Source of the DNA: Paramacrobiotus metropolitanus
Taxonomy: Eukaryota > Tardigrada > Eutardigrada > Parachela > Macrobiotidae
Assembly (NCBI RefSeq): GCF_019649055.1
Contig: NW_026570516.1
Span: 1-64,000 of the forward strand
DNA length: 64,000 nucleotides
Reading direction: 5' to 3'
The translations under genes were made by a program, and so were the position numbers. Of this stretch, positions 6,653 through 51,461 are shown piece by piece (positions within the stretch are counted from its first letter, which is position 1; every line of letters starts with the position of its first letter). The notes below the pieces were generated by a model. That model searched no databases and was not told the DNA's origin. It worked only from the letters and a program-made list of their open reading frames with translations.

Positions 6653-6730
6653 TTCGGTGGGCGATCCCTTAAATTTGATTTTTAATTTGGTTTCGGTGGG
6701 CGATCCCTTAAATTTGATTTTTAATTTGGT
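6653..6730. repeat. Perfect 39-bp tandem duplication
   Basis: Two identical 39-bp units, 6653-6691 and 6692-6730, beginning TTCGGTGGGCGATCCC. They lie in intron 1 of A1. Perfect identity points to a recent duplication or a replication-slippage event. Confidence 0.9.
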
Positions 6731-25852: not shown

Positions 25853-26175
25853 TGTCAGGAGATCGGTGCCACCGCCCAGGATAGTGGGGCTGCGTGGATA
25901 TCGCACCGTCTCTCCGGTCTGTTTTTTGCCGATTCGACCGTACATTAAAATGTACGGCCTCACTTCGGATTTTGCCTTCTCCCAGCCAAGAATATCTTGA
26001 CTGGTCGATTCTGTTCTTCCTTTTGCTCCCATCTGGGGTTTTGATATCATCCTGCGGATGATTTAGATTTGTCGGGCTTCATTGCCTTTATTAAAATTCC
26101 ATTTTAATAAACGATCTGTTTGGCAGCCGTTTCGTTTCGTTCGCACTCCTGTGCAACGCACACAGCGTGCTTTCA
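25853..26175 (+). repeat. 5' LTR
   Basis: 323 bp, TGTCAGG to TTTCA. It holds a perfect 9-bp-arm palindrome (CCGTACATT AA then its complement) at 25938-25957 and AATAAA at 26106-26111. No difference from the 3' LTR was found on reading. Confidence 0.95.
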
Positions 26176-26187
26176 TGGTGGAGATAT
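26176..26187 (+). other. Probable tRNA primer-binding site
   Basis: TGGTGGAGATAT begins directly after the LTR, so it would pair with a tRNA ending ATATCTCCACCA. Animal tRNA-Ala genes end in CATCTCCA, so tRNA-Ala is a reasonable guess. The following bases (GCGGGTTCGATCTCCGC) look like a T-arm on the plus strand, which is unusual for a plain primer site. Confidence 0.6.
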
Positions 26188-26622
26188 GCGGGTTCGATCT
26201 CCGCATCCCTGTAGTCTGTGATTTTTTAATGAGCAAGCAGGCAATTAGCCCTGTGAGCTGCAATTAGCCGATCGTCCGCACTTTGAACCGAGCGCATCAT
26301 CAACCGTGCGCAAAGCCGAATTTCTCTGTTTGGCTAATCGGATTCCACACGTAGCGTACAGTGAAGAGTGGATTTGAGCCTTACGGAGTGCCATCAGGAA
26401 ATAGTTCAGCTACCTCCAGCCTACAGCGGAGTTCCTGAACGATTTCACCACACCACCGGATATCAGCATCCTTCTCTACACGTCGCGAGCAAGCCCAGAC
26501 ATCAGGCATTCACCGGTGGATAAAGCCGAAGCGGAAAAGCGTCTGTGTCTCGGACAAGCATTCGGGAAGCAGCAACAACCGTTCCTCAATCGCTCACTGC
26601 AGTCCTGTCGCGTCAGCAGCAG

Positions 26623-28181
26623 GTAAGCCGTGTTTGCACTTGCAAACAATTAGCCGAAAAAATTCTAGAATAATTCTAGAAGGTTTGCCGATAATTCTAG
26701 AGATTTTTTCTAGAACCTTACGATTTTGTCGTCGAACGACAGCAGCTAAAAGCTATCGTACCGCGTTGCCGTTCATCGTGATTGTATTGACGTTTTTCGA
26801 TCGAGTTAACCATGTTAATTTCTAATTTTATCGCCGATTTCGATTACCGAATGAATCTAGAATTTCTCTAAAAAACGTCGTGTAATTCTAGTAGTTCGCG
26901 CTCTAGAAATTACCCGAATTTTGCCGTGTATGGTAGCTCTAGAAGCTACCGTATTTTATCGTCGTTTTTGTCGTATAATCGCTACTGTTTGTGGTGAGAT
27001 CTTCTCGTTGATTTTACCACAGTAAGCCGCGGTTGCAATAAGAAACTACCCGCCGATAATTTTTAGAATAATTCTAGAAGTTTTGCCGTCAACTCTAGAG
27101 GGTACCTCTAGAGTTCTATAATTTTACTGTCGAAAGGGAGCTGTCAAAAGCTACCACACTTTGCTGCCGTTTGCCGTAGCGACGCTACTGTTTCCGAACA
27201 TGTATGCTTTTATAATTGTTGTCGAAAGTCGTTCATAATTGCCGTAAAATCTTACCATCATTTGTCGAATAAATTCTAGTTGAAATAACTAGAACTATAA
27301 GCCGTAATCTTGAAAATCGTAACTATAGGGATTATGCTGTCGAAATATTAATCGAATTTTCGTTCGATATTGCCGTACCGTATCATCTATATTACCGTAT
27401 AGAATTTAATTTCGGTAGAAATACTGAAATTAGAAAGTCGGGAAAATTAGTAGAATTGTTTGACCTTCTACTGGTAATTCAGAGAAGGAAACCGAAAAGT
27501 CGTTGATAATTCAAGCTGAATTATCGCACCGTATTACTTAAATAATTTCAGCTGTATTTTAGCCGACGAGAGTCGTTATGATTATTCGCAATTTCTTGAA
27601 ACAATCGTGAACCAATTGTCGATAATTTCGCCGAGTTGGTTGTGTCTGCAATTGCAGATTTAATCACACAGTTAAGAGGTCGTCTAGGCCTTACGAGCAG
27701 ATAAATTTGCAGTAGCTTATCCTTGTACCGCCGATTTGAGTTATTTACGGAAGTGATAAGCACCGTGAACAAAATAAGTCGAATAAACTAATAACATTTA
27801 ATGTGCTATTGATCTCCTAATTCATTGCCGACATTAATACCTGTAATAGCTGGATATTATCGAAATTAACGCAATTATTACCGCGTTATCGCTGCCGTAA
27901 TTATTGTTGCATAGAACGAGTGCTGATAATTGCCGAAAAATACCGATGTTCAGTATGGAGCACTGAATCTGTCAGTGCTAGAATATAGCGCCCCGATTGC
28001 GTCGCGTGACGTCATCGATCAATATTGACCGATATAGAATCGTAAGATCTAGTCGAAAATCATTAACAGATTTGATAGAATTTCTACCGACCCAAATATG
28101 GGAGCTAGATAACGAAGTACCTTTTGATTTACCGTATTTATTATTGGAATTCAATCGTAACAATTACCTATTGTTTTTCAG
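26623..28181 (+). other. Probable 1.56-kb intron in the element leader
   Basis: CAG followed by GTAAGC (donor G at 26623) and a pyrimidine-rich TTGTTTTTCAG ending at 28181, 13 bp before the Gag ATG at 28195. Everything between is AT-rich and noncoding. It contains repeated TTCTAGAA/TCTAGA palindromes (about 26,660-27,300) and many GCCGA/GTCGA pentamers. Splicing is inferred from the sites alone. Confidence 0.55.
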
Positions 28182-28194
28182 TAATACAGCCGAT

Positions 28195-30719
28195 ATGGAA
28201 CGAACACCAATAAATAAGGCGAAGCAGTTCGCTAATAATCTTTTACGAACAGCCGACCGGATGATCCGAAATCAGCCGAAAGAAACCGAAACAAACGATA
28301 ATGCTGCCCGCAATGTTACCCGCGGGAAAGCGAAACAGATAGTAGCCGGTGGCGATGAGGTAGTACATCAGGTACTACAAACGAATAAACGAAAGCCGAA
28401 ACGAGCACCATTAGCCGATCTACCAGTACCAGAGTCGGTAGAACAGCCGGCCTCGCCAATGGTTCCTAAGGAGCTGAACGAGGCCATGATCGAAGTAGAG
28501 ACACAACCGAGCGTAGAGAGAGCCGATAGTGCGACAGAGTCGATTACGTCGACGCTATCATCGGTATCGCTAATTAATACTAGCGATCCTGAATCAAATA
28601 AGCCACCCGACTCGTCGGATGATGAGGAGGATGAGCCGACAACGGTAGTACCGTTGGGACCGAAGGCGCATTCCAGTCCGAGCCTCATTGATAAGGCTTT
28701 GGGCAAGGATTTGACGCCGATCCTAAAATCCCGCCGATTCAGCCGTTGCAGCCGACAGGAGAGAAAGGGCCTCGGTTTAGCCTGTTAATGCAAGATACCG
28801 AAACAGTAGTAGAACTGCAAAATCAAGTCTCGGATCTTAGGATTCGACTTGATAAAGCCGAACAGCTAATCGCAAAGCGTAATAAAACGATTTGCGATAT
28901 GACAGCCGATCAAGACAATTTAAAGGAGCAGTTACGGACTGCCAAAGGCGCCCATAAATAGGCGCCCATCAGGCGCATAGGCGCCCATCAGGCCATAGGC
29001 GCCCATCAGGCGAATAAAGCCGCTGTAGGGCTTGGAGCCAAGGTCGTCGAACGTGATAATATAATTTAACAGCTAAAAGCCGAACTAAAATCAGAAAAGG
29101 ATTCGTCGACTAACTTCCGCAGTCAGTATCTCGAAGCTATACAAGCAAACGGGAAGTTGAGTAGGGAGTCGAACGACCGACTCGTTTCGATCTCTACGCT
29201 GCAAGAGTCGAGTGAGAGAATCCGGTCGGAATTTAATACATTAGCCGAAAAGTATAACCGTTTGTTGACAACGCATCAACAGATGGTGGCCGCAGTCGAA
29301 AACCAAATCGATTACGAAGAACGGTCGCCCACGCGAATGCGTGCTGGTCAGCCCGAAACCATGCACTCCCGCATGGAGCCGGCCCCGACAGTAGATATTA
29401 GCCGACAGCAGGTTTCCCATAAGGAGGCAGAGGTAATTTGCGAAGATCTGCGGGAAGAACTGCGTAAGCTAAGTAAACGAACAAGCCGAACCAATAGTCC
29501 GCTAAGGAAAGCCGACCTAGCCGACGCCATACGACAGCCGGTTCCTAGGCCATCGTATAATGGCAGTAAGGAAGACATTGATAGTTTTCTCATCAAGTTT
29601 GAGCAAGCCGCAAAAGAAAACCGTTGGGTTAGCGACGAGCGTAAGATAGCCAAGCTAGCTTACTGTCTAAAGGACGAGGCAGTAATCTGGTATAACGGCC
29701 CGCTCACGTCCCCAAATAAGCCGACTACGTACCGGGAGTGGCGTAACCAATTGGTTGCGCGGTTTGGTGATACCAGACGCTCTGTAAATGCGTTGTCCGA
29801 ACTCACGAACCGAACGTACCGTCCAGGTCAGGAATCGCTTGAGAGTTTCTTTCAGGCGATGATGACGCTGAGAGATAAGGCCGGTTATGCCGGTACGCCG
29901 GATCAATTCGTGACCTTTCTAATGAAGGGCATTAAGTCGCATGCAACTTTGCATGATAAAATCGAGGGCATGGATCCTCGCACGCCGGAAGAATTTTTAG
30001 AAAAGATTCGCTATTTAACGGCGAGCAATCCCGAAAAGTATGTGATTCCGGTCGGTAGTAAACGTAAGAACCAAAATGCCGACTCTGTGACCGTTCGTAC
30101 GGTACAGACCCAGCCGAAGCCGGTAAGCTATGCGGCAGCAGCTGCCAGCCCGCCGCGCCCCATTAATGGGGGGAATTGCCGACCAAATCGACCAGCCAAT
30201 AATGGCAACGATACCGGTAACATTAGGCCAGCAAGTAATGCTAATAACAGCAATGTTAGGCCAGCCGGCAATAACAATAATAATCAACAGTCGATCCGTT
30301 CCCAGCTGTGGGCCGAGAACGCCGGACGTATTCCCGAGAATACTAACCGGGCTCCACGGTTGGAGAAGGAGATGAGAAACGGCCGAGTCGTTGAGTACTG
30401 CCAGCAGTGCGATGTCTGCGGGCACTACTTTGAGGCATGTCAGTTTAAAGACGTGCCCCGAGCCGAGAACCCAATCTATTTGTCGTATCACGATCTGGTT
30501 ACGGGGAATCGCCGGTACGCCAGGGATTTCCGCAGCCGAAGCCAAGCCGGTAGTGGAACGGGCACGCCTAATAGTGGCCGTTCCCGAAACAATTCACAGT
30601 CGCGTGGCCAAGGCCCGGGCCAGTCGAATGGTCCAAGGCCGACGTCACGTTTACCGCCGCCGAAACAAAATGAATATGCCGCATCAGCAAGTAGCCAGGA
30701 AAACGACAACGGGGAGTAA
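28195..30719 (+). pseudogene. gag: gag of the 15.4-kb element (frame disruptions)
   Basis: Begins ATG 28195 (MERTPINKAKQFANN). The first ~180 codons then shift to another frame near 28,720. The second frame holds a coiled coil (LQNQVSDLRIRLDKAEQLI), crosses TAG at 28959-28961 and TAA at 29067-29069, and then runs open from 29,070 to TAA 30717-30719. It carries a retrotransposon-Gag-like capsid region (DIDSFLIKFEQAAKENRW, AVIWYNGPL, FFQAMMTLRDKAG) and a zinc knuckle at 30399-30440 (CQQCDVCGHYFEAC, matching CX2CX4HX4C). A triple repeat of GGCGCCCATCAGGC lies between the two stops. Gag would form the particle and bind the RNA. Pol follows in the -1 frame. Whether the stops are read through is unknown. 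Confidence 0.85.
28948..29012 (+). repeat. GGCGCCCATCAGGC repeat in gag
   Basis: One partial copy (GGCGCCCATAAATA) and three copies of GGCGCCCATCAGGC with short ATA spacers. It lies in the coiled-coil part of gag next to the in-frame TAG and may be a recent local expansion. Confidence 0.7.
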
Positions 30720-30739
30720 CTTCCGGCAGTACTCCCCGG

Positions 30740-33700
30740 TTGCCTGGTGAAGTGCCGGATACTACTGAAATAATAACTATTAGTGGTATCCGAATCACCG
30801 AACCGATCGAACGAGACGAGCCGATTGTAAACGAAATCAATATTGACGATTCTAAAGTCGATTCAACTAAAGAGCCGAAACGAGCGCCACCGTTAATGGT
30901 GTGGGCACGTATCTTAGGCACAACCGTTGTGGTTATGGTCGATACTGGAGCCGAGACGTCACTCATCTCGAATGAGTTCGTCGATGAGCTAAAACTAGAA
31001 AGACTACCGTTGGTTAAGCCGCTAAACATTAGAGGAATCGGTGGTATGTGTGGATTTTTAGTAACCCACTACTGCACGGTACCCGTTAATATATTTGGCG
31101 AACTAATCAACCATTCCTTCTACATTAAGCCGACCGTCGACGACACTAAAGTGCTATTGGGTCAGGACTTCTTGGCCGGCACTACCTTTGGTGTCCGTGA
31201 TAATGAACTACAATGGATCCATAGGATTAATACCCTAATGGTCGATCCATCAACTAATGAACCTAAAAAGCCGAATACTATTGAAGAAATCGTTCCGATA
31301 CCCGTGGCATCGGAACCAACTATTAATGCTATTGATATCTCTAAAGAGCCGACCCCTAAAGCCGAAATTGTTCCGATACCCGTGGCAAGGGCCACGAGCA
31401 AAACGAACATTAAACTACCGCCGCCGAGAAAGTCGTTTGCTAAATTATGGCAAGAATATCAAGTTTTTGTTTCCGAAGTACGGGGACTAGCGAAATTATT
31501 TCATAAAACTCGACAAGATATTCTTGTCCTAGCGGATGATAGCACGCCGATTACAGGCATAAGTCCTGAAGAAGCCGAACAGCTTATCAACAATCTCGAT
31601 TCAGCATTCAGAGATGAATATATCTTGATGCTAGAGAAACAGAAGAAGCTGAAGGAAGCATTTGAGTACTTCAAATACGACGTACCATAGGCATTACGAG
31701 ATGACTTAGAAAAAATGACTACAGTAAAACTAGAGTCAGCCGTACAGTTGCCGTATCAGCTTAAGCCGAAATATAAGCCGAATAATACGCCTCCCGAAGC
31801 GGAAGGCATGATTAAAGCTAACCGAGCGCCTCGGGCACATTTTAACCCAATGGCGTCCGTAATGGAGTTTAGTAAAGACGAGCCGACTATAGAATGTAAA
31901 CCGCAATCAAAGCCGAACAATGATGTCGCATGTAACGAGGCGAATGTTGAGCCGAACGAGCCGAATCATGCCGATACCGTAGTCGAAAATATACCAAGCC
32001 CTAATGGAACCCTATCTCATATACAATCATTTGATGCATCAAATCTAATCATTGCAAATGTAGAGCCGGTAGTAAATACTGAATCTACGCCGATTATTAG
32101 GGAATCAGCTGAACCTGATCAGTCAACTGATCCCACAGCTACTGATAAGACTTGGGAATTTTCTGAGTCGCCTACTACTGAATCTACATCTCGTAGCCCA
32201 CGCCTCCAATCGATTAAGGTGTTCGCTACCGATAAAATTCTAATCAATCCTGGTATAAATATGGCTGCAGTAGTAGCACGATTCGACCCAACTGAAGAAT
32301 TTTCGACCGATAAGTTTCTGTTCTTGCCGAGCCCACATGTTTACATGGAGAGGCATATTAAGCCGATCGAAGGTGTCGTAAGACCAGCTAATGGGAAATT
32401 TGAACTGGGATTGTTCAGTTTCCATAATAGTCGAAAGTCGATTAAGAAAGGTCAATTCATCGGTTACCTCGAGCCGTACGAAGAGATAGAAGATGATGAG
32501 ATCTGTATTAATTCCGTCAAACTAGCCGAACGAACGCCGGAAGAACAACAAGAAATCCGAGAAGCCGTCGATACGCTTAAGATTAATTCTAAGCTAACAG
32601 CCGAACAAATAGCGAAGATCAAGGAAGTATTTCTTGAATATCTTGATCTATTTGCCACTAAACGCCGACCTTTTGGTGATGTTACAATTGTAAAACATCA
32701 CATCGATACGGGTGATTCCCCGCCGATTAAATGTAAGCCGCACCGTACCTCTTGGCGAGGTTGGGAGATAATCGAAGAGCATGTTAAAGAAATGCTCGAA
32801 AAAGGAATTATTCGCCGATCAAATAGTAACTGGTGTTTCCCAGCCGTGCTGGCTTCTAAGAAGAATCCAGACGGTACTATCGGTACGCGTTTTTGTGTCA
32901 ACTATATAAAGTTGAACCACGCAACGAAAAAGAATAATTATCCTTTGCCGTCACCGGATGCATTACTTCGATCCGTGGCCGATAATGAATATTATGTAGG
33001 TGTCGATTGTAATGCCGGGTTCTGGCAGATACAAATGGCCGAAGATTTAATCGAAAAGACTGCGTTTATCACGCAAGACGGTCTTTTTGAATTTTTGCGC
33101 ATGCCCTTTGGTGTGTGCAATGGGCCGGCAACATTCCAAGAGACTATGAATAAGGCTCTTGTGGGAGTACGCAATGAGAATATCTTTGCGTACTTAGACG
33201 ATATTATTGTAGCCGCTAAGGATTTCGACGACTTGATTCGTAAAATCCGACTAATGTTTGAATGCCTCGTAAAGGTCGGCTTCACGCTTAAGCCGAGCAA
33301 GTGCCATGTCGGTGAAACCGAGTTGCATTTCCTTGGACACATAGTGTCTAAAGCCGGAATCAAAACCGATCCGGAGAAAATCTCCGCGATTCAACAGTTT
33401 GCGAAGCCGCAAACTGAGAAGGATCTTCGATCTTTTCTCGGTTTATGCAACTACTACCGCAAGTTCGTTAAGGACTTTGCCAGCCGAACTCGAGCCATGT
33501 ATGGCTTGCTAAAGGGCGAAATCGATGTTAAGAATAAGTGGACAGCCGAACATGATGCCGAATTTGTCGATCTAAAAAATGCATTGATTAATGCGCCGGT
33601 TTTGGTCAAGTTTGACCCAAATAAGCCGACAGTTATCTAGTGCGACGCTAGTACGATAGGAATAGGAGCTATCCTACATCAGGATGGTCATCCGATCGTT

Positions 33701-35656
33701 TACGCTAGCAAGCTCCTAACCGATGCCGAACGCAAATATCCCATCACCGAATTGGAATGTATGGCCGTGGTATTTGCATGCCGTAAGTTCCGACACTTCA
33801 TCAAATACTCACATGTTTATGTGCAAACCGATCATCAAGCGCTAACAAACTTGTTACGCTCTGTGTCGAGGAAGGAAGGCTTGAACGGGCGTCTGACCCG
33901 TTGGGCACTTTAGCTGAGTAGTCACAAGATGACTATTCAGTATCGGCCGGGTAAACAATGCGATAATGCCGACGCTTTAAGCCGACATCCAGTCGGACCG
34001 CCGGTCGAAACAGCCGACGATGACGACTGGGATGAAATGAAAGATCGGAAGTTTATTACTCCGACCATTCGAGTCGTCACTATCACCGACCCAGCCGAAC
34101 ATGACGAAGTCGAAGATAATTTCAAGTATTATCGAACCGAACAGGAAAAGGATCCTGTAATCGAAAAACGTATTCATGCCCTTGAGGGCCGAGCCGAAAG
34201 TACGCACTTAATCAAGCGCGATCCATACTTTGAGTTATGGAATGGCGTTCTGTACCGATTAACCGAAAAAGACGGCCGCCTTGATCGACGGTTCGTCGTG
34301 CCGAACCATATGCGTGTCGATATAATGCATGCTATGCACGATACACCGGCTAGTGGACATTTGGGTCCACTGAAGACGTACCAAGCGATTGCGCTTTGTT
34401 ATAATTGGGACGGCATGGTTGCCGATATCGATAAGTACGTACGCAATTGTTATTTGTGCCAACACCGTAAAACCGAACGGAAAGCACCGCCGGGTAAGCT
34501 ACAACAGATAGCTATCGGAGCTCCATGGTTCCGAGTACAAGTCGATTTAAAAGGACCCTTGCCGATTACCCCAAGAGGTAATAAATACATAGCCGTCGCT
34601 ATTGACGAATTAACTAAGTTCGTACTAGCTAAGCCGATTCCTAATGCGAAAAAGGAAACTGTCGCTAGTTTCCTTATTCACGACGTATTTTTGCCCTATG
34701 GCACGCCGCATATCTTAAATACCGATCGTGGAACTCATTTCCACAATAAGCTTCTGAAAGCGATCAACCATCGCTTAAAGATACAGCATCATTTTGGTGC
34801 CGCCTACCACCCTATTGGTAGAGGCCTAGTCGAACGTCAAATGCAAACTATTGCCGATTCGTTGGCAATGTACGCCGCCGACGGACGGGAAAAGAATTGG
34901 GATACCATTCTCCCGTTTGTTATAGCCGCTAAAAACCGAGTGCAAAATGCAACTACTCACATGTCGCCGTACTATATGCTGTACGGGCGTGAGCAAGTTA
35001 TACCAGCCGATACGGTCACTAAGACCAATGTACCAGTCGAACATGCGTCGATAGCCGAATATATGGAAGAATTTCGCCATAATTTGGCGCGAGCGCATGA
35101 GTTAGCCGAAATTTATATGCGAGAAGAATTTATTAAAACGGCCGAACGTTTTATTAAAAAACGTCGAGAAGACGATTATCAGATCGGCGAACTAGTTCTC
35201 CTAAAGCGAGAGAAGAAAAAAGGTGAAACCGAATCTTTCCGAGAAAAATTCGGAGGTAGATGGGAAGTTTCTGGTTTCCCGTATACCAATGCCGTCGAAA
35301 TTGAAAATAAAGATAAGCCGGAAGAAACTCGCATCGTGAATTGCGAGCGCCTCAAGCGTTATAATACTACCGAAGAGAATCGTAAAGGAATAACTAGTAC
35401 GATCTCCCTGCCGAAATCTGCCGAAAATGGCTTAAATGTGAACGCTGAGCCGTTCATACCAGCCGATACCGCAGAAGCTGTTGAAGTTATAAACGATACT
35501 GTCGAAAATAATGCCGACTCCGTCAATGACGATGATCAGTGGGAACCCGAAAGTGCGGTTGCCGAAGATATTAGCCGTAAAAATAATAAAAAGAAGCCGA
35601 TTAAACTTAAGCTACATGTGCGCCGTAACAAAAACGGATACGTACATGTACGGTAA
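30740..35656 (+). pseudogene. pol: pol of the 15.4-kb element (three in-frame TAG)
   Basis: One frame of 1,639 codons with no frameshift, in the -1 frame relative to gag. Protease DTGAETSLIS is at 30941-30970 and LLGQDFLA follows. RT has WCFPAVLASKK, FCVNYIKLN and YLDD at 33191-33202. RNase H has CDASTIGIGAIL, TELECMAVVF and QTDHQAL (33641-33910). Integrase has the HHCC finger (HDTPASGHLG, CYLCQHRK) and the D, D, E core (VQVDLKGPL, NTDRGTHF, GRGLVERQM), then a GPY/F-like tail (FGGRWEVSGF). TAG codons interrupt at 31688-31690 (after the protease), 33638-33640 (between RT and RNase H) and 33911-33913 (end of RNase H). The usual Q of YHPQ...G before the catalytic Glu is Ile. All catalytic residues otherwise remain. 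Either readthrough occurs or this copy was made in trans. Confidence 0.92.
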
Positions 35657-35909
35657 CTGTCGACTATATCCCCACTATCGTGAGGTTTTTACCTCCTGCC
35701 GAACTAAATCCCCACTAGTTTCTACCGTAGTGGTCCATACCTCTTGCCGATTCAAATTAGCCGCTCCAATCTGGAGATCTTTCACTATTAATCTTGCAAT
35801 TATTAGTGATTAGCCGTGCCGATTAATTACTGAATTAATTTTCGAATTATTCATGTAATTAATATGCCGTACAATTAACCGGGCTTACTGTGTTGTAGGC
35901 AAAGTCGGA

Positions 35910-37348
35910 ATGGAAGGCCAAGGCCAACGTCAGCCGCAGCGTCCGTCGGGATCAGGTAGTACCATAACGCCGCGAACGCCGCCGAATACAGTCCGTCTGA
36001 ACGTTGTGGCACATGCCCAATCAGATGATGGGCCGGTCGAAATACAGACAGTTCGAGTTTCTCGTTCTGCCCAAACCGATCCAGTAACCATTATCGATCA
36101 TGATCCGTTACATGAATTGATAAGCCGTCGCCAGATAAACTGTCTGACAAATCGAGTAAATCGCCGAAGAAATCGCCGAATAAATCAGAAGAGTCTTCGC
36201 CGTCTAGTGCGTCTCTTCCGTTCGAGCAGGACCCACCTGCAGAAGAGCTACCCGTTATGCTCGATGCCGCATTAGCAGCTTTTAAAGAGCTGAAAAATAA
36301 GGAAAGAGCCGCTTCATTCACCTTCAAATTTCAATTTTATAAGGGGCGGGTGAATTATAACGCAAGTCGTAAACGCTTCCGATTAGCCATTCAAGGTGCC
36401 GCTAATCGGGGTGAAATGTAAGAAGTGTACTTGCATTGGTCAAGTACCATTATGTATTCGCCGACAGATCTACGCCGTCGTTGGTACGAGCGTATGGTCA
36501 TCAGTACGCCGGAAAGTTTTAGAGAAGCCGTTACTATCGCTATTCACGATATTCATAACAGACTTGGTTCGTCTGTCGCCGAAATAGCGAATTATATTAC
36601 GCTAACTATGCCGATGCGACTTGTCGCCGCCGCACAACAGTTTCCTATGATTTTGGAAGCTGTTCACGAGTTAGTCCGTAGGGAAATAATTGTGGAAATT
36701 ACCGGATTAAATGTGCCGCGTTATGCGTTAGCTGATACAAACCGTACGCGGTTGAGTGCCGTCAGTGGCGTCCCAGTGAGAGACTTGGGTCTACCACCGC
36801 CGGATAAGAAACGCAAGAACGTTACGGTCATTCGACAACCGCCGCCGCCTCCAGAACCGACACACGCCATTCTGGCAGACGCTATAGGACAGATCTTAAG
36901 ATCTCGACAACAGCCGCTATTAGGCAGAATTCCCGATACGTTAAGGCATCGGTATAGTGCACAAGCCGTAGCAGTTTCGCTTAATCGCGAATGGGAACAA
37001 GGCCGACTTTTACGTCAGTTTAATCATCGCCAATTAATGGCATATTATACTGTAGCGCCGAACGTGTCCTTTTTGCAAGACTATCCGCTATTTGATGCCA
37101 CTCAATGGCAAGAGGTAGTTATCCGTACAATAGCCGAAATTAATGATCCATTGGGATCGACAGTCGACGAAATTGTGCAGTATATTCGCACGGTTCGTCC
37201 TGAAATGGGAAATCGTGTCGACCATTATGTCGAATTAGCCGTATCTGAGTTGGTGTTCAACCCGCGTATAATTTCCGTTAATGATCCGGAACGGGGCATA
37301 ACTGGGCGAATAAACCCAGCAGATGCACCCGGCCCGTCACGCCGATAA
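35910..37348 (+). pseudogene. Extra frame X1-X2: SPKK-type tail and two H1-like winged helices
   Basis: The frame starts at ATG 35910. Near 36,117 the reading moves to the -1 frame, where KSPKKSPNKSEESSPSSAS resembles the SPKK DNA-binding motifs of histone H1. A TAA at 36419-36421 follows, and the same frame stays open to TAA 37346-37348 (ATG at 36452 if separate, 298 residues). That part has two similar ~75-residue segments: AIHDIHNRLGSSVAEIANYI...LVRREIIVEITG...YAL and TIAEINDPLGSTVDEIVQYI...LVFNPRIISV. Their pattern (GSS, AI..YI, basic helix, beta wing) fits the linker-histone H15 winged helix. It lies directly after pol and has no membrane segment, so it is not env. A chromatin or DNA-binding role is inferred; domain assignment needs a profile search. 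Confidence 0.5.
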
Positions 37349-37631
37349 TTTATTGTTAAAATTAAAAGCCGATCAACTGTCGATATTACTCTCGTAAAAA
37401 TAACCGATAATTAATTATCAATTAGGATAGTTAGTTAATTTAATAAGCCGTTATTATTCCCCCACTAAATTGTGGTCCGTACGTAGTCGCTCTAATTAAT
37501 CGATAAAATGCCGATTAACCGAATAAAAAATAGGTTAAATAGTCGATTAATGTTAAATAGCCGATTAATAAACAAGGCAAATTAGCGTTGAATAATTATG
37601 GTTAATTAACCGGTATAATCAAGTAGATAAT

Positions 37632-40600
37632 ATGGAGCCGTGTCATCGTTGCGAAAGCAACACCAGTAGCCGGAAATGCGCCGAATGCCTGCTGGGACAG
37701 AATTTGTACCAGCTGGATCCGAACATTGTCGTTCCACGGTTGGTGAATGAGGTGCTGTCCCGTAATCTGGACGCATACATCACCGTGACGGAAGCGCAGT
37801 TTGAGCCGGCCTTACAGGCGAAGCCGTGGTTGCGGACGCGCATGAATGACGCAGTCCGCCGATTTATTTCGACAGCCGGTCCGCGGGATCCATGGCGAGA
37901 TATGCCAGAACCAGTGGATCAGCCGATTCAGCAGATCACACCGCCGAACAATTATGTTGCACAAATGCACTTGCCCATCAGCTACCCTGCACAAGTGCAG
38001 ACGCCGATAAATCAGGTAATTAGTTCCGACTCTGATTCTGAGACTTGTCCCCTAAGTACTTGGGAATGTGTTCCTTTAAATCGTTCCGATAATAATCCCA
38101 GTCAGTGGAAAATTGACGTTCTTAATTTAACTATGTCGCAGGGACATGCTATGAATCCCATGTCGCCGCTTCAGCAGATGCAGTACTACCAGCAGTACCA
38201 GTCGACACAGTATCAGCCGGCGCAATATGCGCAATATCAGCAGCAAGCCGAAGCCGCTTTCAATCAGCCGCAATATCAACAATATCGTTAGCAGAGCGAG
38301 CAGGTAGATAAGTTTATAATTCCTACCTGTAAGTTGTGTATACAGCCGTATAATAAACTACCTTTACAGCAGGCGCCGAACAGTGTCGATAGTGCAGAGA
38401 CTTCTGATCCCTGGCTGAGGGAGCGTGGGTATCCGGGAAATACTGCACCACAGCAGTATCCAAGCCGTGCTGCATCACAGCAGCGTCCAGCCGAAGTGCA
38501 GCCCAGTACGTCGCGTGTGAAACCAGACGCGCGTGTCGGACTGTCGAAGCAAGTAGGTAGTTTGTCAATTGACGACTCTAATACGTCGATTAGGGAACCG
38601 TCGTCTAGCGACAGTAGCCGATCAGTATTTGGTGCTCGACACCGTATCGAGTATACCTTGGAGCCGTCTGAAAACCACTCCCACTCGGGCAAGAATATAG
38701 TAGTTGCCGGGAGAGATTTGTCGAAATATGAACCTAAATTGTCCGCTGATTTGCAGAGTCGTGGCAGACAGCGCGCAAACCAGCCGAATATCCGTTCTGC
38801 TAGCTAACAGCAGCGTAATGAGCCGAATAAACCGCAGAATGTTAATCAGCCGGCTGAATCTCAGCAACCGCCGCCGCGTGAAACTAATTCCCGCGATAAT
38901 CGTGGTGTTCGACGACCACGACAGCCGACCATCGATCCTAATAGGATCCTACGCGATGTAACTTAGTATACCAGCGACTTGGGTATTTATATACACAAGT
39001 TAGCTACCGTCGCTGATATAGCGAAGACAAATGCGCCGGAAATGTTATGTTTAAAGAAGATGATCCAGAATGCCGTGGCATTTCTGGGGAAGATAGGACT
39101 AAAAGACCCGATGATGGAGTTTGATTACTCCACTGTCGACTTGTCGCGTTCGTTGGAAGTACTTACGTACGCGTCGAGCCACCGTAATAATCTCCGTACA
39201 GTGTTAGATAAGAAGCACTTGTACACGCCGATCACCGCCGTCGATATTGAGATTATTTCTCAATTCAAAATTTATGGAGATCCGGTAACTGAAAAATTTT
39301 TTATGCAGTATATACTGCCACAAGCCGATCCTGCGAAGTTTTTCTTCTTCTGCAAAGTCGCTCATTATTTAAACCAAGAATTAAATGAGCGCAATATCGA
39401 TTGGACGCCGATTCCCTACAATACGGGATTAAAATTCGCCGCTATGAGTATCAAAGCCGCACTACTTGGTAGTCATAGCGCCCATAAGGCGATCTACCAA
39501 AGTAAGGAACGAGCCGAATATGCCCTGTTAAAGGACTTGATCGAAATGCTAGGGAAGCCGCTCACCGAACAGCAGGAAGCGCAGGTGTTGAAAGACACTC
39601 TGGCTGCTGCCGGTCATGTTGAAATGGACACTGACGAAGCCGACCAGTTTTACGATGATGTTAATATCCGTATGAAACGATACGGTGATCGTAAGACGCA
39701 GTTCGACAAGGGCCAGCTGTACAAAAAGCGCCCTTTGCCCGATTCGCCGGATGCTCCTACGGGAAGCAAAACCGTACAGCCGGAGCCGAAGTTCCGAAAT
39801 ATTCGGAAAAATCAGTCGGGAGATTCCGCGACGCCGCAGTTGGGAGTGATGGGCGGAAAACAGCCCGTTAAGCCGATTCCTCCCATTACACAGCCGATTA
39901 TAATTCCACAAGTGAAGCCGAATCTGCCATTGGCGAAGTTCAAATCCGCTCCGTCGTTGCTGGATATGACTACGGTTAAATCCACAGGTACGAGTACCGA
40001 GCCGAATAAGAATAAGAATGTTTCACGACCGCCGAGTAATAATGGCAATAAAGCCGCTAATAAATCGGGTGTTGCAGGGAAGTCACAACAGCAGCAGTTG
40101 CCAGCTGTGCCTGCGCCCGTGCCGCCGATTTCAACTGTTCTTGTTGAACAACAGCCGATTGTTGCGAATGAACAACCAGCAAATGTTATATTGTCGATTT
40201 CCGCCGAAACGCAGCCTGTTAACGCTGCACTGCCGCAACGAACAGTTAACAGAGCTAAATCTGTTAGCACAGAGCCGAAGACGAAGGATATTCTCGTCGA
40301 GAGCTATTTGGTGAAATTACCAATTTCTCGTATGTCCGACGCCGAGTTTGAATTTTATAAGACGACGAAGTCGTTTGAAAATGAGGCCGAACCGAATTCC
40401 GATGACTATAAGCGGAATACGATCGCGTATTTACGCAAGATGAGGGAGTCTGAAATGAATAAAGACCAACTTGCGTTCTTTCGCCGATACCGTTCCGATT
40501 ATCTAGATGAGTATCTGGATGACGCCGACAATACTGAACAGCCGTTCATTCGATTGCCGCCACCGCAAGGTGAGGAAGATACCGAAATATTTCACGATAC

Positions 40601-40748
40601 AATGGAAAACGTGTCGGCACAATCTGTGCAACCAGTGTCTCAGATACTGGGCGATGCTTTGTATGCAGTCGCCGGAGCCGCTATAGCCGATTGTATTTCC
40701 GATCCTGCTGCCGTCGACGCTGACACCGACATGCTGAATGATGCGTGA
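37632..40748 (+). pseudogene. Extra frame X3: ~1,040-codon protein of unknown function (three stops)
   Basis: One frame from ATG 37632 to TGA 40746-40748, unbroken except for TAG 38289-38291, TAA 38805-38807 and TAG 38964-38966. The N-terminus has a CXXC pair (CHRCESNTSSRKCAEC) that could bind zinc. Next comes a Gln/Tyr-rich prion-like stretch (QYYQQYQSTQYQPAQY) ending at the first stop, then a Ser/Gln-rich linker. After the third stop lies a helical globular region of about 230 residues (KLATVADIAKTNAPEML, FFMQYILPQADPAKFFFF, KFAAMSIKAALLGSHSAHKA). A Pro/Lys-rich tail and a final acidic part follow. I recognise no family. There is no signal peptide or membrane segment. A weak match to the left-edge element suggests it is shared among these giant elements. 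Confidence 0.7.
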
Positions 40749-40932
40749 GCGATGCTGCCGAAATGCTGTTATGGAGGACAAGTCATTCTCCAAGCTGAAT
40801 TCATTATGGAATGGATCTCATCAAATTCGCCAAATTTTTGTGATTTTTTTAACCTAGTATATGCGCCGCAAGTTGTACTCGGTCGCATTTTGCTCATTAT
40901 TTTGGTGTTTGTTTTTGTTTGCTGTGTCCTCG

Positions 40933-40955
40933 CGGGAGCTCGGAGTTCCGTCCCG
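40933..40955 (+). other. Hairpin just before the 3' LTR
   Basis: Nested inverted repeats (CGGGA...TCCCG outside, CGGA...TCCG inside) end 5 bp before the 3' LTR. Here a polypurine tract would normally prime plus-strand DNA, but no clear purine run is present. The hairpin or the short GGGAG stretch may serve instead. Confidence 0.5.
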
Positions 40956-40960
40956 TGGCA

Positions 40961-41283
40961 TGTCAGGAGATCGGTGCCACCGCCCAGGATAGTGGGGCTG
41001 CGTGGATATCGCACCGTCTCTCCGGTCTGTTTTTTGCCGATTCGACCGTACATTAAAATGTACGGCCTCACTTCGGATTTTGCCTTCTCCCAGCCAAGAA
41101 TATCTTGACTGGTCGATTCTGTTCTTCCTTTTGCTCCCATCTGGGGTTTTGATATCATCCTGCGGATGATTTAGATTTGTCGGGCTTCATTGCCTTTATT
41201 AAAATTCCATTTTAATAAACGATCTGTTTGGCAGCCGTTTCGTTTCGTTCGCACTCCTGTGCAACGCACACAGCGTGCTTTCA
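40961..41283 (+). repeat. 3' LTR
   Basis: 323 bp, identical to the 5' LTR by reading. The palindrome is at 41046-41065 and AATAAA at 41214-41219, which would supply the poly(A) signal of the genomic RNA. It is followed by the second CTGT. Confidence 0.95.
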
Positions 41284-45942: not shown

Positions 45943-46027
45943 CCCATCGGCTATCGTAACACATCACTTTGCTGGAAGCATTCGCAATCATCATGTTCCA
46001 TATTGTGTACCAACAGAAATTTGGGAT

Positions 46028-47258
46028 TTGGGTCCGTGGATTTGGGTTCCTGAGAAAATGAGACTAAGCCGTGTGAGTCGCAGTCGGCCGCCTGCATGGT
46101 GCGGAGGGGCAGTTGGCTACTGGAGGAGTCCAGATAGTGGATTTCTCTGCACCGACATCGTTCCCACGCATCGCATTCGTACTGCGGACGCAGGTGTCCT
46201 ACTGGCCAATCGTATCGAAGCAGGTATCTTTTCCAGGCGCAGTGTGGACCTGGGCGCCGAATTTCGCTCCCTCTCCACCAGTGAAGCCCGTTCGCTCATG
46301 CAGCGATTGAACAGCTACAGTCTGCATTTCTACTCGCCAATGCTCATTGTGGACCTCGTGGGCGGCATAATAAGCTACATTTGCCGGAGCCAGTGGCGTA
46401 GGAAGGTATGGGGCCACGGGGCCGTGGCCCCGAAACCTCCCTACGCCGCTGGCCGGAGCAGTCCCCAAGAAAAAGGGTATCGTTGCAAGGTCGGTATTCG
46501 CTTTCCAAGATTTCCATTTTGTTGTGTCGACATTACGAATTATTGAGTAGAATTTTAGCAGAGAAGTTGATCGTTTCCATTATGAAATGATCCCGATGGT
46601 CACGGATAATCTCGCCAGCACTGGTCGGGTCAAAAATGACATTGTGGCGCCTTTTACGCTACCGTTGGAACTTGGAACTGTGGGGTCTTTTCCCGTTTGG
46701 ACACTGTAAATCAGACGAAGCTGCGCATGATGTGCGTTACGTGGAACCGGATCCTGGATACTCCAGCGCTGCGTTCCACCTTGGTGATCCGGCATGAGAA
46801 CGATGTCAACCGGCCACCTGCCCGTTTTCTCGCCTTAGGGACGCTGTACAAATGCTTACGCCCCGGGACGCAACGCGTTGTAGTCATGCACGCCGATGAC
46901 AACCAGTTGATGACTTGATGACCTTCGATGCGCTGATGGTGTGCGACATGATTCAGCATGTGGCCAGTTGTCTACCGCAGTCCGTCTGCGCACCCTTCAT
47001 CTGCACCGTGTCCGCCTGAATTTGCAGATGGACTGCGCTGTTGGTAGTACTCACAGTGCCAATCGCCGCGTTTACCGATCGGATGTTAAAGCAAATGATT
47101 ATTGTTGGCTGGAGGATTTCCTTGCAGTATGCCGCAGTCTGCCGTGCGGTACGATACGCATGCCGAGTTGCCAGGTTTCAGTGCAATGCGTAAAACTGTT
47201 CTGCACTCCAGCGTTCCAGTGGCTGTCGTCTGCGTACGAACTTTTTATCCTTTCGTAA
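46028..47258 (+). pseudogene. Family A F-box gene A7 (5'-deleted, frameshifted)
   Basis: Module 1 and the start are deleted: the upstream block runs straight into module 2 (GPWIWVPEKMRLS, GGAVGYWRSP, DIVPTHRIR). Exon 1 continues through GAEFRSLSTSEARSLMQRLNS and SYICRS, where a 61-bp hAT MITE plus 8-bp duplication adds 23 codons without breaking the frame. Exon 2 begins near 46,562. Its F-box region is damaged (ELGTVGSFPVWTL, then TAA), with frame changes to NQTKLRMMCVTWNRIL and later LNLQMDCAV...CWLEDFLAVCRSLPC. It ends near 47,258 without exon 3. Pseudogene. Confidence 0.75.
46391..46451. mobile_element. 61-bp hAT MITE inside an exon
   Basis: The element begins CAGTGGCGTAGGAAGG and ends CCTCCCTACGCCGCTG. 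It folds into an almost complete hairpin and is flanked by GCCGGAGC on both sides (46383-46390 and 46452-46459). CAGTGGCGTAG ends and an 8-bp target duplication are typical of hAT elements. Element plus duplication is 69 bp, a multiple of three. Confidence 0.9.
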
Positions 47259-47606: not shown

Positions 47607-48338
47607 CCATTGTTCCAGCCTGTCTCGCCGCGCACTCTGAGTGCGCTCAGTACGAAAAGTGCCGGAAACTGTCAAACAGCGTTACTTACTGAAAACAGCG
47701 TCCAGAGGTTCTCCCGGGGTTTTCCGGTTCTTCTCCGGTAAAGCCGGGTTACCCTCCGGTGATTTCGTTTTCCGGACCGGTGAAGTTGGGTTAGTCACCG
47801 TTGACTTGCGTTGCGAAGTCGTCCTCTGGGACCGTCTAGTCGTTCGTTTGGCTGATGTCCGGCTTTAGTTGGGTACTATGCCATCCTGTTGGAGTGACAC
47901 CAAGTCGCCCCAGTTTCGCGAAGCCGCGGCACTAGTTGGCGCTTGGTGCAACATTCCATCCGCGAAGAAATCAGGTTATTGCAGCACCTATTGGGCGCTC
48001 AACACCGGATTGAGGTTTCACTGGGCTCACCAACATTCTCGCTTAAGGGGCAAGTTGACCCAGGGTAGTTAGTTTCTGGTCCTCAGATTTTCTTCGTCGG
48101 GTCTGGACCGGTTTGCTATTCCACTCTTGGCCTTACCGTAGCTCAGAGAAAACATCCCCATACAAGACTTTTCTGTGACTTCCATTCTTGTACAGAGGAA
48201 GCCGTCGGAAAATGCCCCCAATTATTACTGCCGCCATTTCGACTTCTGCTTCCTCCGTTGCATGTTTCGTTCCGACTAGTGAATTCGTTACCTGGACTAC
48301 CGGCTGAGACCACAATTACCGCCGTAGTCGGCAGCGGG
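47607..48338. other. CCGG-rich stretch next to the minisatellite
   Basis: No confident gene. On the minus strand an open Ser/Thr/Lys/Arg-rich frame of about 60 codons ends near 47,688 (KSTVTNPTSPVRKTKSPEG). It could be the remnant of the Gag-like element at 48.6-51.5 kb. CCGGT is frequent between 47,720 and 47,790. Confidence 0.35.
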
Positions 48339-48577
48339 TCTCGGGAACGGCACAGCCGGGAACGGTTTAGCCGGGAACGGTTTAGCCGGGAACGGTTTAG
48401 CCGGGAACGGTTTAGCCGGGAACGGTTTAGCCGGGAACGGTTTAGCCGGGAACGGTTTAGCCGGGAACGGTTTAGCCGGGAACGGTTTAGCCGGGAACGG
48501 TTTAGCCGGGAACGGTTTAGCCGGGAACGGTTTAGCCGGGAACGGTTTAGCCGGGAACGGTTTAGCCGGGAACGGGC
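48339..48577. repeat. 15-bp minisatellite, about 15 copies
   Basis: Near-perfect tandem units CGGGAACGGTTTAGC. The first unit differs (CACAGC). It is open in several frames (RERFS on plus, AKPFP on minus), but nothing indicates translation. Confidence 0.95.
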
Positions 48578-48613
48578 CTGTAATTTATGCGATTGTTTGC
48601 TTTACGGACACAA

Positions 48614-51461
48614 TCACGGATCCAGATCTTCTGAAAAGGAGTTCGTAAAACTGATACGAGGTTCCCGCATTCTCCGTTGTTTGTCTAGTTGTTTGTCCGT
48701 TGTTTGTCTGGCCTTTGCCTTGGCCTTTGCATATGCATCGGCCACCGTTTGCATGTATACCAAATCATGCACTGGTGGACTGGCCCTTGGCGATGGTGCA
48801 GGCGTGATCTGCTGTACCACTACTTGTAGCGGTGGATGCAGTGACTGTGGCGCTGGGCCTGGCTGATGTCCCTGTTGAGGGTTCACCAACGGTTGCGGCG
48901 GGGATCGGATAACTGCGTTGAACGCCATCCACTCATATGCTCCATTGGGCAGCTGGATCAGCACAAGCGCATTCTGGCCCAGGTTTGGCTAAGCTGCAGG
49001 TCCGGGTGGCTTCGCCGCCGCTGGCAGTGCGCCGGGTGGGTGGGGCGCATTCTGGCCCGACTGGTTGGGGTTGGTCCGTTTAAGCTGCCGCTGAGATAGG
49101 AGGGCCAGTTAGGCTTAGTTGGCCTATGAGTGGCTGTTGCACCGTTGGTGTGCCACTTTGGCCTCCATTTTGTCCCTGTGTTGCTGATGGTCCGAACATC
49201 GAGCTCAGTGGATTGGACCTGTTTGGATCCGTGCTGCTTATGGGAGCCTGGGCTGAGACCAGGTGTGGGCTCAGGTGAAAATTCATGTTCGGAAACAGGG
49301 ATGGGTACATTGGGCTTGACCCGAAGTATCCGGGGCTCGGCGTGTGATTCTGAGACGTCGGCTGGCTCGGGCCAAACAATGGCCCAGTTGGCACAGACGG
49401 TTGAGTCTGAGTTGCGGGCATCACCATGGTCGATTGACCCATAGTTGCTGATGTGTTGACCGGGATTGGTGGTGGCGGTATCGTTACTGTCGCCGGTGAT
49501 GATCCCTGGTTCACCAAACTTAACGACCCTGGTATGGTCGGGCCAGTCGGAGGATGTCCCACTGATGGGTCCCCCACGGCCATGTTCACGTGGTAATTTT
49601 GTTGGTAATACATTGGCTGACGGTAGAACCGTTGGTCCTGCCGCAAAGCGTCGTCTGCTTTTTCTTGTTGACGTTGTGTATCCGAGTCCGGAAAGGTGTG
49701 GTAGGAGGGCGGTTCTGGACATCTCGGAATGTAAATTCTCGAGATGTGATTTTTTCGCGTCTAAGCAGGCGTTCTCTGTGCTTAGCCTTTCAAGATCCTC
49801 GTTGAGTTCAGTGATGCGTTGGGTGGCCACCTGGTAGTCTTTGACCAGGCTGGCGTTATTGGCCTCCAATTTGATGATGCGGTAATGTTGGCCCTGGAAC
49901 ACCTGTTTGGCTTGGGCAAAGGCCTGGTCCAATTGGACAATGTTTTGTTGTCCAATGACGTTGTTTTGCTCAAACTGGATCCGAATCCTTGAATTCGGTC
50001 CTGGGCTGGTTCTGGAGGGCAGAGATCTGTGCTTCCTTCTGTTGGACCGTTTGGTCCACCAGCCCTCCCTGTTGGATCGCCTGCAGCAGAGTCTGGTGAT
50101 TCTAGTACAGCAAGTGATATCCGTTGCGCAGGCGGTTGATCTCGTCCTGCAGGTTGGCCATGTCGTCGGTTAGACCATCATTGTCCGTCTGTAGGCGGTC
50201 CGCCTTAGAGTCAGTTTCGTCAATTGTGGCCCGGGCCGCGGCCAGGTCGTTCCTGGCTGTGGCCAGCTCGGTACTCGTTGAAGCGAGACTTAAGTCCCGC
50301 CACCGCCACTTCTAGGCGATGAATGTCTTTGTCAAGCTGTCTCGCTCAGCCTTGGGACATGAGGCCAAATTGAGTTTAGTCAACTCGAGTTGGGTCTGGG
50401 CCTGTTTAGCCGAGACACGTCTAACCTCTGCTTCCGCTTTGGATGCGAGGGTTTTGTACTTTCTGATCTCCTCTCTCATCAGCTGTTCAGCTGTGAGGGT
50501 CCTTTCGGCTGCGGCGACAAGTTGCTTGGTCATGTCCCGCACTCTGATCCTGAGGACTTCGACTTCGTTGATTTCTTCGGGCGGGGTTGCTTGTATCAGG
50601 TTCTGTGGGCCAAGGCTGACTGGTTCAAGTCAATCTCGACAAGTCCACTATTGGGTCCGGGTCCGGTTTGGTCCGGCCGGGCACGCCGATGACGTCATTG
50701 GTGGGTGATGGCGTTGGATGAGTTGAGCCATCAACTTCGAACATGATTGGCGACTGACTCATGAGCAGTTGGCCCCGGTGATGTGCCTTTGGACCAGGAT
50801 TTTGGCATTGGTCTTGCGCCTTGTCTCCCCCTTTGGTCATCGTTGGTGCCTCAGGTTGGATCCGGTCCAGACCCGGTAGGGTTGGACTTGTTATCGAATC
50901 CTGGGCGACAAGGTTGGCCCGGACTAGATTCTTGGCACCGGGTCCCCGTCCCGTGTCCTGTCCGTTGGTCACCGTTGGTCCCTCAGATTGGGCGTGGCCC
51001 GGATCAGGTATAGCCGGTTGGCGCCCCAAAACCCGGGGGACACTATTGGCCTGCGCCGGCATCTCGGCGCCAGGTTGGTTGTCTTGAAGCTGGTTGGCCT
51101 CAAGCAGCCCTTCGGACGCCTCCAGGAATGTATCGTCCTGGGTGGCGTTAATAACTTTCCTACTTGTGTCCAGGTCGGCCGGCAGGATTTGGTTGTCCCG
51201 CCTGGCTCTGGCCTCGACCTAACTCGTGGAACCGGTCGAGTTTGGTTCGTCCGGGTCAAAACTGGTCCGACTTGCGCCACGAAAACCGTATGGCCCCGTT
51301 GGTTCGAGCGTGGCGTAGTAATTCCCGCAAGGTTTGGCGTACTCAATGGTTTGTCGCCTGTCCCTAGGACTGAGCAATCTCCGTTGGAGTTGCTCACGGC
51401 CGATGTATGGCATCACCTTGGCCAAGGCACTGTGAGTTTGGCCCATGGTACTGGAACGTAG
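48614..51461 (-). pseudogene. Degenerate coiled-coil Gag-like region of another giant element
   Basis: Several consecutive minus-strand frames appear to be one broken gene. From high to low coordinate: a Pro/Gln-rich region (51.4-50.6 kb); a coiled coil (50,542-50,312: VAAAERTLTAEQLMREEIRKY); a second coil after a frameshift (50.3-50.1 kb); a third (49,932-49,740: IIKLEANNASLVKDYQ, RITELNEDLERL); a Pro/Ser/Gln-rich region (49,646-49,080); and a segment starting LIQLPNGAYEWMAF (48,964-48,614). Long coiled coils before a low-complexity part match the N-terminal half of Gag in the 15.4-kb element. No capsid, zinc knuckle or protease is seen. TTGG on the plus strand (CCAA on the coding strand) is extremely frequent. 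Identity as Gag is inferred. Confidence 0.45.

Follow-up and report, generated by a model that had tools for sequence, protein, structure and literature searches.

A polar sequence word filling the interior of a Ty3/gypsy retrotransposon of Paramacrobiotus metropolitanus suggests a family-specific recognition code

The stretch of Paramacrobiotus metropolitanus DNA analysed here (the window; 64,000 nucleotides, contig NW_026570516.1, assembly GCF_019649055.1) contains a Ty3/gypsy LTR retrotransposon of about 15.4 kb whose interior is filled on one strand with the word GCCG, often within GCCGA or AGCCGA. Every GCCG-family element read has its interior filled in this dense and polar way. The pattern points to a cis-acting, family-specific and polar recognition code read in trans, as if the RNA or DNA of each family carried a tag private to that family. 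A trans-acting reader fits because the word changes between families, is kept between copies and is present in short elements. A preliminary description of the window had proposed a recognition code comparable to that of the plant VANDAL transposons and their VANC proteins. The code is well supported by shuffles, flanks, the change of word, conservation and the short elements; the likeness to VANDAL/VANC holds in logic only.

The element and its motif field

The element occupies 25,853-41,283 of the forward strand (15,431 bp), and all features given here lie on that strand. Its LTRs (25,853-26,175 and 40,961-41,283) are identical at 323 of 323 bases, have TG...CA termini and are flanked on either side by a 4-bp CTGT repeat. 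The Pfam domain order is PR-RT-RNaseH-IN, and with the paired LTRs, their termini and the target-site repeat it identifies the sequence as Ty3/gypsy. A putative primer-binding site at 26,176-26,210 was read by eye, its reverse complement having a CCA end and resembling the 3' half of a tRNA. It opens a non-ORF leader of 1,821 bp (26,176-27,996), which is followed by ORF X1 (27,997-28,788), without a Pfam match and matching the N-terminal part of the longer Gag frame of a sister subfamily. Gag (29,157-30,719) was recognized by a Retrotrans_gag match below the Pfam cut-off and a CCHC knuckle seen by eye. Downstream are the aspartyl protease (30,740-31,690; E 1.2e-10), the reverse transcriptase with the start of RNase H (31,715-33,640; RVT_1 E 2.8e-26, the RNase H match also below cut-off) and the integrase (33,929-35,656; H2C2 E 3.6e-17, rve E 3.9e-10). 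The 3' part encodes a linker-histone-like protein, H1L (36,425-37,348; PF00538 E 4.7e-9, above the Pfam cut-off), ORF X3 (37,632-38,291), with a cysteine-rich start and no family, and ORF X4 (38,979-40,748), with no Pfam family. The linker-histone domain is the only Pfam domain among the extra ORFs.

The preliminary description had counted 29 GCCG (8, 5, 7 and 9) and no CGGC by hand in four intervals, and 1 and 0 in another, A2; these counts are exact. It had also claimed that one strand is saturated from 26,600 to 40,750, where GCCG occurs 268 times and CGGC 22 times, and GCCGA 140 times against 4 for TCGGC. This is confirmed, and word counts and spacing extend the field to the whole inter-LTR interior (26,176-40,960), with 273 GCCG and 22 CGGC, 144 GCCGA and 4 TCGGC, and 77 AGCCGA against 1 on the other strand. 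The 323-bp LTR has just 2 GCCG and 1 CGGC, and the flanks are symmetric (GCCG 98 and CGGC 121 in 1-25,852; 102 and 106 in 41,284-64,000). GCCG exceeds CGGC by at least 9 in all 14 interior 1-kb windows. The two differ by at most 7 in 46 of the 47 flank windows and by 15 in the last, whose position suggests that the tandem 15-bp array near 48.3 kb is probably the cause. The word is found in every codon phase, as had been described, with unequal use (85/24/97), and in the noncoding leader (23 GCCG, 0 CGGC); 206 copies lie inside ORFs and 67 outside. Spacing is more even than under random placement (CV 0.77 vs 0.98, sd 0.06). GTCGA, earlier called frequent, does show an excess (57 vs 23 TCGAC in 26,600-40,750), which is weaker and less polar than that of GCCG.

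Controls, copies and related families

Codon-aware and host-flank checks had been named beforehand; the excess survives the former and is missing from the latter. Each control comprised 300 shuffles, of synonymous codons in ORFs and of dinucleotides elsewhere. ORFs contain 206 GCCG vs 99.1 (sd 7.4, maximum 124), in agreement with the earlier statement that codon choice is insufficient, and the non-ORF parts contain 67 vs 19.9 (sd 4.2, maximum 31). CGGC falls short of its expected number in ORFs (20 vs 38.3) as well as outside them (2 vs 12.5). GTCGA in ORFs reaches 39 vs 17.9 expected, and the top 6-mer, AGCCGA, 77 vs 17. When uniform synonymous codons are taken as the baseline (54 expected), roughly half of the excess in ORFs is common to the element's own codon and residue use (99 expected). 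The two shuffles rule out codon use and base composition alone as the explanation.

Elsewhere in the genome the GCCG excess is limited to element interiors. LTR orientation places 18 of the 60 LTR flanks read within elements (two of the 18 overlap), and these carry 17-36 GCCG vs 0-3 CGGC; in the remaining 42 neither word exceeds 14. In the pol region of the GCCG family, GCCG ranks first of 254 4-mers in retention (0.871 vs 0.683 overall; CGGC 0.756), and in that of the sister subfamily ACCG ranks third of 187 (0.882 vs 0.760 overall; CGGT 0.638). Leaders about 58% identical each retain 18-24 GCCG vs 0-3 CGGC. Retention of GCCG is above average in the leader and 3' end too, yet its rank is no higher than 39th of 244 in the former and 23rd of 255 in the latter. 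Gains and losses of the word were also counted (four gains and no losses of GCCG), in numbers too small to use. Clusters of three GCCGA are not family-specific, with 1,354 and 1,328 matches genome-wide and 2,096 and 1,721 for the reversed pattern. Of the matches shown with their letters, many come from a different repeat, in which GGCCGAARTGA units recur at intervals of about 16 bases.

The sister subfamily, 92% identical in RT, is filled with ACCG(A) instead. ACCG occurs 52-60 times vs 5-9 in all four of its pol loci, and the bias extends to the leader (12/0) and to two stretches between genes (5/0 in each). Its raw 5-mer strand asymmetry (3.9-4.4) is not above that of the highest host 3-kb window (4.5). 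Where the pol locus in the window has one of its 74 GCCG, the sister shows GCCG in 15 cases, ACCG in 21 and other words in 38, with changes at each of the four word positions. Words of the AGSCAG type mark three elements that are more distant, with AGSCAG at 10.8/0.1 per kb (sense/other strand) in C64, 12.0/0.3 in C13:674k and 9.0/0.0 in C117. Of eight related elements read, four (C212, C28, C17 and C7) have words that are weak or less polar. The trait is not general to Ty3 elements here, a possibility ruled out because no 5-mer exceeds z 3.6 in a Ty3 stretch at 35-4,430 and half of the pol loci (15 of 30) have no GCCG or ACCG excess at that level.

Two elements of about 4 kb (C13:1410043-1414560 and C104:397962-402407) have only their ends in common with the 15.4-kb element. 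Their LTR pairs are identical at 346 of 346 bases in one and 99.7% identical in the other. Both carry the word on the same strand as the long element: GCCGA occurs 27 and 24 times, where 4 are expected in either case, and once in each on the opposite strand. Their longest stop-to-stop frame is 159 aa among the three longest per piece in the interior parts read, outside the middle 1.1 and 1.0 kb, and no RT, H1L or X4 match is among the matches listed for them. For this one pair GCCG retention ranks 12th of 77 and 21st of 106.

Candidate readers and competing explanations

The explanation preferred here, given nearly an even chance, is that the word is a self-recognition tag, read by an element protein on sense RNA or single-stranded DNA, by which the element would select its own RNA. 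An element-encoded protein would contact the family word again and again on a single strand, for which sense genomic RNA or single-stranded cDNA is the most natural choice. The 15-kb transcript and those of the short passengers would be selected and coated, and also packaged or protected, and host RNAs and the RNAs of other families would be left out. Many weak sites would provide avidity, so that positions could turn over while density is kept. If the protein's preference shifted, the word would follow across the whole element, giving GCCGA and ACCGA in sisters and AGSCAG in others. GCCG is predicted to be unpaired in the sense RNA more often than words of the same composition (0.121 vs 0.041), partly because its reverse complement is depleted; for the words of C64 no such difference is predicted. 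Against a self-recognition tag, the LTR is hardly enriched although it is part of the RNA, and a directional DNA reader could also give polarity. The C64 prediction, the weak or less polar words of four related elements, the sister's asymmetry relative to host windows and the lower retention ranks outside pol count against it as well.

Candidate readers are the Gag nucleocapsid tail, X3/X4 with a basic linker, and H1L, and protein divergence from the sister singles out none of them. X4-like cores are present in other Ty3 families of the genome; the AlphaFold model of X4 has a mean pLDDT of 36.4, and its profile has no match among PDB sequences. H1L has at least 53 matches in the genome, and its profile matches histone H1.0 among PDB sequences (E 0.0035), other matches being weaker.

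The linker-histone domain of H1L would also suit a VANC-like anti-silencing function on DNA, in which H1L binds the word in chromatin and keeps the element expressed, directional binding giving the polarity. Family-specific anti-silencing encoded by transposable elements has been reported in outline from plants (PMC5735166). Among the matches listed, H1L is found in all strongly polar-word elements read and not in C7, which has the least polar word (parts of one C7-type element). However, H1L is also present in the weakly marked families C212, C17 and C28, its net charge is only +4 in 307 aa, and a double-stranded site is not expected to show strict polarity with depletion of the reverse complement. 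This explanation is considered unlikely. An equally doubtful one is that host RNA factors read the word, so that an unspliced RNA of 15 kb is exported or stabilized, or so that splicing and premature polyadenylation are blocked. The even, transcript-wide coverage of the sense strand and the presence of the word in short elements without a long ORF in the parts read agree with it, but a shared host reader does not predict different words in related families of one genome. A functionless bias, mutational or compositional, of reverse transcription or editing is very improbable: an element copied in one direction would naturally acquire strand bias, and purine-rich sense 4-mers occur in related families too, but the excess survives both shuffles, and a single mutational process is made unlikely by the changes at all four positions of the 74 pol sites, by retention better than that of other words (the opposite of a mutable site) and by the very different words of families in one genome.

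A broader proposal, possible although somewhat short of an even chance, is that the LTR families of one genome write private polar barcodes over their whole interior, coding parts included, which a family-specific element protein reads in trans to separate own from foreign RNA, that barcode and reader co-diverge and so isolate families, and that non-coding passengers evolve the barcode of their carrier. The usual account of how retroelement proteins choose their own RNA invokes a short, structured signal close to the 5' end. If true, a barcode over the whole interior would be a different answer to this problem, one that constrains coding sequence, switches between sister subfamilies and is common to a short passenger. 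It would provide natural word-and-reader pairs for studying the evolution of recognition specificity, and would mean that nucleic-acid recognition can drive both the codon use of mobile elements and the composition of their proteins. The idea is directly testable with purified proteins.

Comparison with known systems

Chi, KOPS and DNA uptake sequences are short, over-represented and strand-biased words that occur genome-wide in bacteria, genes included, and are read on double-stranded DNA by host machines or uptake systems. The words described here are likewise short, over-represented, strand-biased and inside genes, but they are confined to mobile-element families, with one word each.

Among retrotransposons, the plant Retand elements also belong to Gypsy and have a long internal region, the title of the paper pointing to the part that separates pol from the 3' LTR (PMC11963269). 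The title and the start of the abstract mention neither a linker-histone-like ORF nor a saturating motif for Retand, and titles and abstract openings listed in literature searches report no such motif or linker-histone ORF in LTR elements. Dispersed packaging signals of RNA viruses are outlined as stem-loops with a motif in the loop, believed to bind a structural protein (PMC6281560). The present element resembles them in having many similar sites with a common word along its sense RNA, coding parts included. It differs in that the word is linear, 4-6 bases long and far denser, and is predicted to be more unpaired than similar words in this element, not in C64.

VANC21 sites are outlined as motifs on double-stranded DNA that lie within tandem repeats in the non-coding regions of DNA transposons, and binding of VANC to its motif has been demonstrated (PMC5735166). 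By that outline, the system described here differs in belonging to an LTR retrotransposon and in being confined to one strand; the word is evenly spaced rather than tandem, and is abundant in coding sequence. It agrees in the dense short motif, which changes between related families, and in a putative element-encoded reader. In both systems unrelated elements can bear the motif, AT9TSD1 in Arabidopsis (PMC5735166) and the short elements here.

One-strand word in the window element

The stretch at 25,853–41,283 is an LTR retrotransposon. Its identical 323-bp LTRs (25,853–26,175 and 40,961–41,283) end in TG...CA with CTGT on either side, a primer-site-like sequence is present, and protease, RT and integrase were found in Ty3/gypsy order by Pfam, with matches to Gag and RNase H below the cut-off. 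Following pol, inside the element, the ORF H1L (36425–37348) carries a linker-histone domain (PF00538, E 4.7e-9, Pfam), and the ORFs X3 and X4 matched no Pfam family. All protein-database matches of H1L (1) and X4 (11) are named Paramacrobiotus metropolitanus, a tardigrade.

The interior between the LTRs holds 273 copies of GCCG and 22 of its reverse complement CGGC; the corresponding counts are 144 and 4 for GCCGA and 77 and 1 for AGCCGA. The hand counts of GCCG and CGGC in the preliminary description were exact on recount, and its view that codon choice does not account for the word is borne out, as the ORFs hold 206 GCCG vs 99.1 (sd 7.4) expected under synonymous-codon shuffling and the 4,495 non-ORF bases 67 vs 19.9 (sd 4.2) under dinucleotide shuffling. 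CGGC falls under expectation in both. The 1.8-kb leader, the non-ORF stretch after the 5' LTR, alone has 23 GCCG and no CGGC; its part at 26640–27120 also abounds in TTCTAGA-like palindromic words. GCCG exceeds CGGC by at least 9 in 14 of 14 interior 1-kb windows; in the flanks the two counts differ by at most 7 in 46 of 47 windows and by 15 in the remaining one, which lies close to the tandem array at 48.3 kb. GCCG is spaced more regularly than under random placement (CV 0.77 vs 0.98, sd 0.06).

The remainder of the window contains remains of a second element (35–4430, minus strand) with a protease-like frame, Ty3-like by eye and without a family word; repeated gene copies at 5647–17300 and 46000–47200, pieces 65–90% alike, which we take to be F-box-like in part; a 15-bp tandem repeat at 48297–48620, lying within an ORF, where its 15 in-register copies read as RERFS repeats; and an 88-nt inverted repeat (53227–53314/53599–53686, 98% complementary, spacing 284 nt).

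Words of related elements and copies

Related elements were sought in 169.8 Mb (533 contigs), and word expectations were both codon- and dinucleotide-aware (150 shuffles; other-strand counts in brackets). AGCCGA occurs 77 times vs 17 expected (1) in the window element, and ACCGA 100 vs 42 (9) in its sister, copy C6. AGCCAG reaches 91 vs 21 (1) in C64, together with AGGCAG at 49 vs 11 (0), and 25 vs 5 (1) in C13:674k; C117 has GCCAGA and TCAGAG, each 16 vs 3 (0). Weaker words were CCGTA in C212, 43 vs 18 (8), TACGA in C28, 19 vs 7 (1), and TCGAA in C17, 33 vs 13 (15). In C7, CGAT occurs 235 times vs 109, but with 145 on the other strand, and AACGAT 33 vs 11 (3). Under the same shuffles no 5-mer of the Ty3 stretch at 35–4,430 exceeded z 3.6. 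In host flanks 5-mers remained at z 4.3 or below and 6-mers rose to z 6.4 (TCTTTC), including TAGCCG in the right flank (18 vs 5 expected, 9 on the other strand, z 6.0); a single 6-mer reaching z 6 is therefore not conclusive.

Sense/antisense densities per kb were 9.7/0.3 for GCCGA in the window element vs 0.8–0.9/1.3–1.5 in host flanks, 6.7/0.6 for ACCGA in the sister, and 10.8/0.1, 12.0/0.3 and 9.0/0.0 for AGSCAG in C64, C13:674k and C117. Strand asymmetry of raw 5-mers, measured in 3-kb windows, peaked at 4.5 in host sequence (30 tests). The window element (4.8–5.7) and C64, C117 and C13:674k (5.2–5.9) exceeded this value, the sister (3.9–4.4) and the weaker-word families did not, and the 35–4,430 stretch reached 4.6 with AAAAG. 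The case for the sister's word rests on the shuffles, non-coding counts and the conservation test.

Within 4 kb around each of the 30 best RT matches, 11 loci were GCCG-rich (62–77 vs 5–14), four were ACCG-rich (52–60 vs 5–9, with 22–26 GCCG), and 15 had neither excess at that level. The four ACCG loci make up the sister subfamily, with RT identity of 92% in three full-length matches and 88% in a partial fourth. Among 60 LTR flanks of other copies, the 18 (two overlapping) that lie inside elements by LTR orientation hold 17–36 GCCG vs 0–3, and the other 42 at most 14 of either GCCG or CGGC; the excess starts and stops with the element. A separate repeat, at G000:C1:549716–550605 and other places, contains GGCCGAARTGA units at intervals of ~16 bases; its two ends, ~0.7 kb apart, carry them in opposite orientations.

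Conservation and short elements

Retention of 4-mers was compared across aligned copies. In pol of the GCCG family, GCCG was the best kept of 254 4-mers (0.871 vs 0.683 overall; CGGC 0.756), and in the ACCG family ACCG ranked third of 187 (0.882 vs 0.760; CGGT 0.638). Neither GCCG (0.646) nor ACCG (0.547) stood out in pol of the 80% family (0.581 overall). In the leader and 3' end, which change fast, retention of GCCG was over average but ranked only 39th of 244 and 23rd of 255. Leaders ~58% identical (13 of 15 pairs) still hold 18–24 GCCG each vs 0–3; what persists is thus their density, not their position. Of the 74 GCCG sites in the window pol locus, the sister shares GCCG in 15 and shows ACCG in 21; the other 38 carry different words, including GCTG (8), GCAG (8), GTCG (3) and GCCT (2). 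The differences fall on all four positions and are not of one kind.

Two short elements have their own LTR pairs (C13:1410043–1414560, 346 bp identical; C104:397962–402407, 99.7% identical), and their LTR matches ~10 more contig places. They resemble the window element only over the LTR's first 60 bases, at element positions 210–357 and over ~55–63 bases preceding the 3' LTR. In the parts on either side of the middle ~1.1 and 1.0 kb, a survey of the three longest frames per piece gave 159 aa for the longest wholly internal stop-to-stop frame, and among the matches listed none to RT, H1L or X4 lies in these parts. GCCGA occurs 27 and 24 times vs 4 expected in each, with 1 each on the other strand, and GCCG retention in this single pair ranked 12th of 77 and 21st of 106. 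Since these elements share little but ends with the 15-kb element and carry the same polar GCCGA, their sequence argues for a cis signal, putatively read in trans.

Putative reader and known systems

Because the word keeps to one orientation, its complement is depleted and its coverage of the transcript is even, it would most simply be read on a single strand. As families of one genome have different words, we favour a reader that would be element-encoded rather than a host one. Divergence between window and sister ORFs does not single it out (identities IN 87%, RT 78% with RT core 92%, H1L 70%, Gag 69%, PR 63%, X1 50%, X3 43% and X4 43%). The sister's frames are Gag 865, H1L 859 and X3/X4 1,036 aa, the corresponding window-copy frames being split; the sister's Gag tail (+10) and X3–X4 linker (+8) are basic, and H1L is just slightly so.

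A serious rival to single-strand reading is a DNA-level role for H1L like that of VANC, the VANDAL anti-silencing protein named in the preliminary description. H1L, with at least 53–54 genome matches, is present in every strongly polar element read; the weakly marked C212, C17 and C28 have it too, and none of the matches listed falls in C7. It scores above the Pfam cut-off in the window element, the sister and C212 and narrowly misses it in C64. X4-like cores are more widespread (at least 147 matches, 150 of 345 candidates scored) and include C7. As far as the available text goes, the VANC21 system is like the present families in that its motif changes with the family, but its motifs are dsDNA sites within tandem repeats of non-coding DNA, an anatomy unlike that of the word here (PMC5735166).

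At the level of titles and abstract openings no earlier report of such a motif was found, and the available text of a tardigrade transposon study covers Hypsibius and Ramazzottius, without the word Paramacrobiotus (PMC11071193). The dispersed packaging signals described in the available part of PMC6281560 are like the word here in being numerous and on the sense strand, but differ in being stem-loops.
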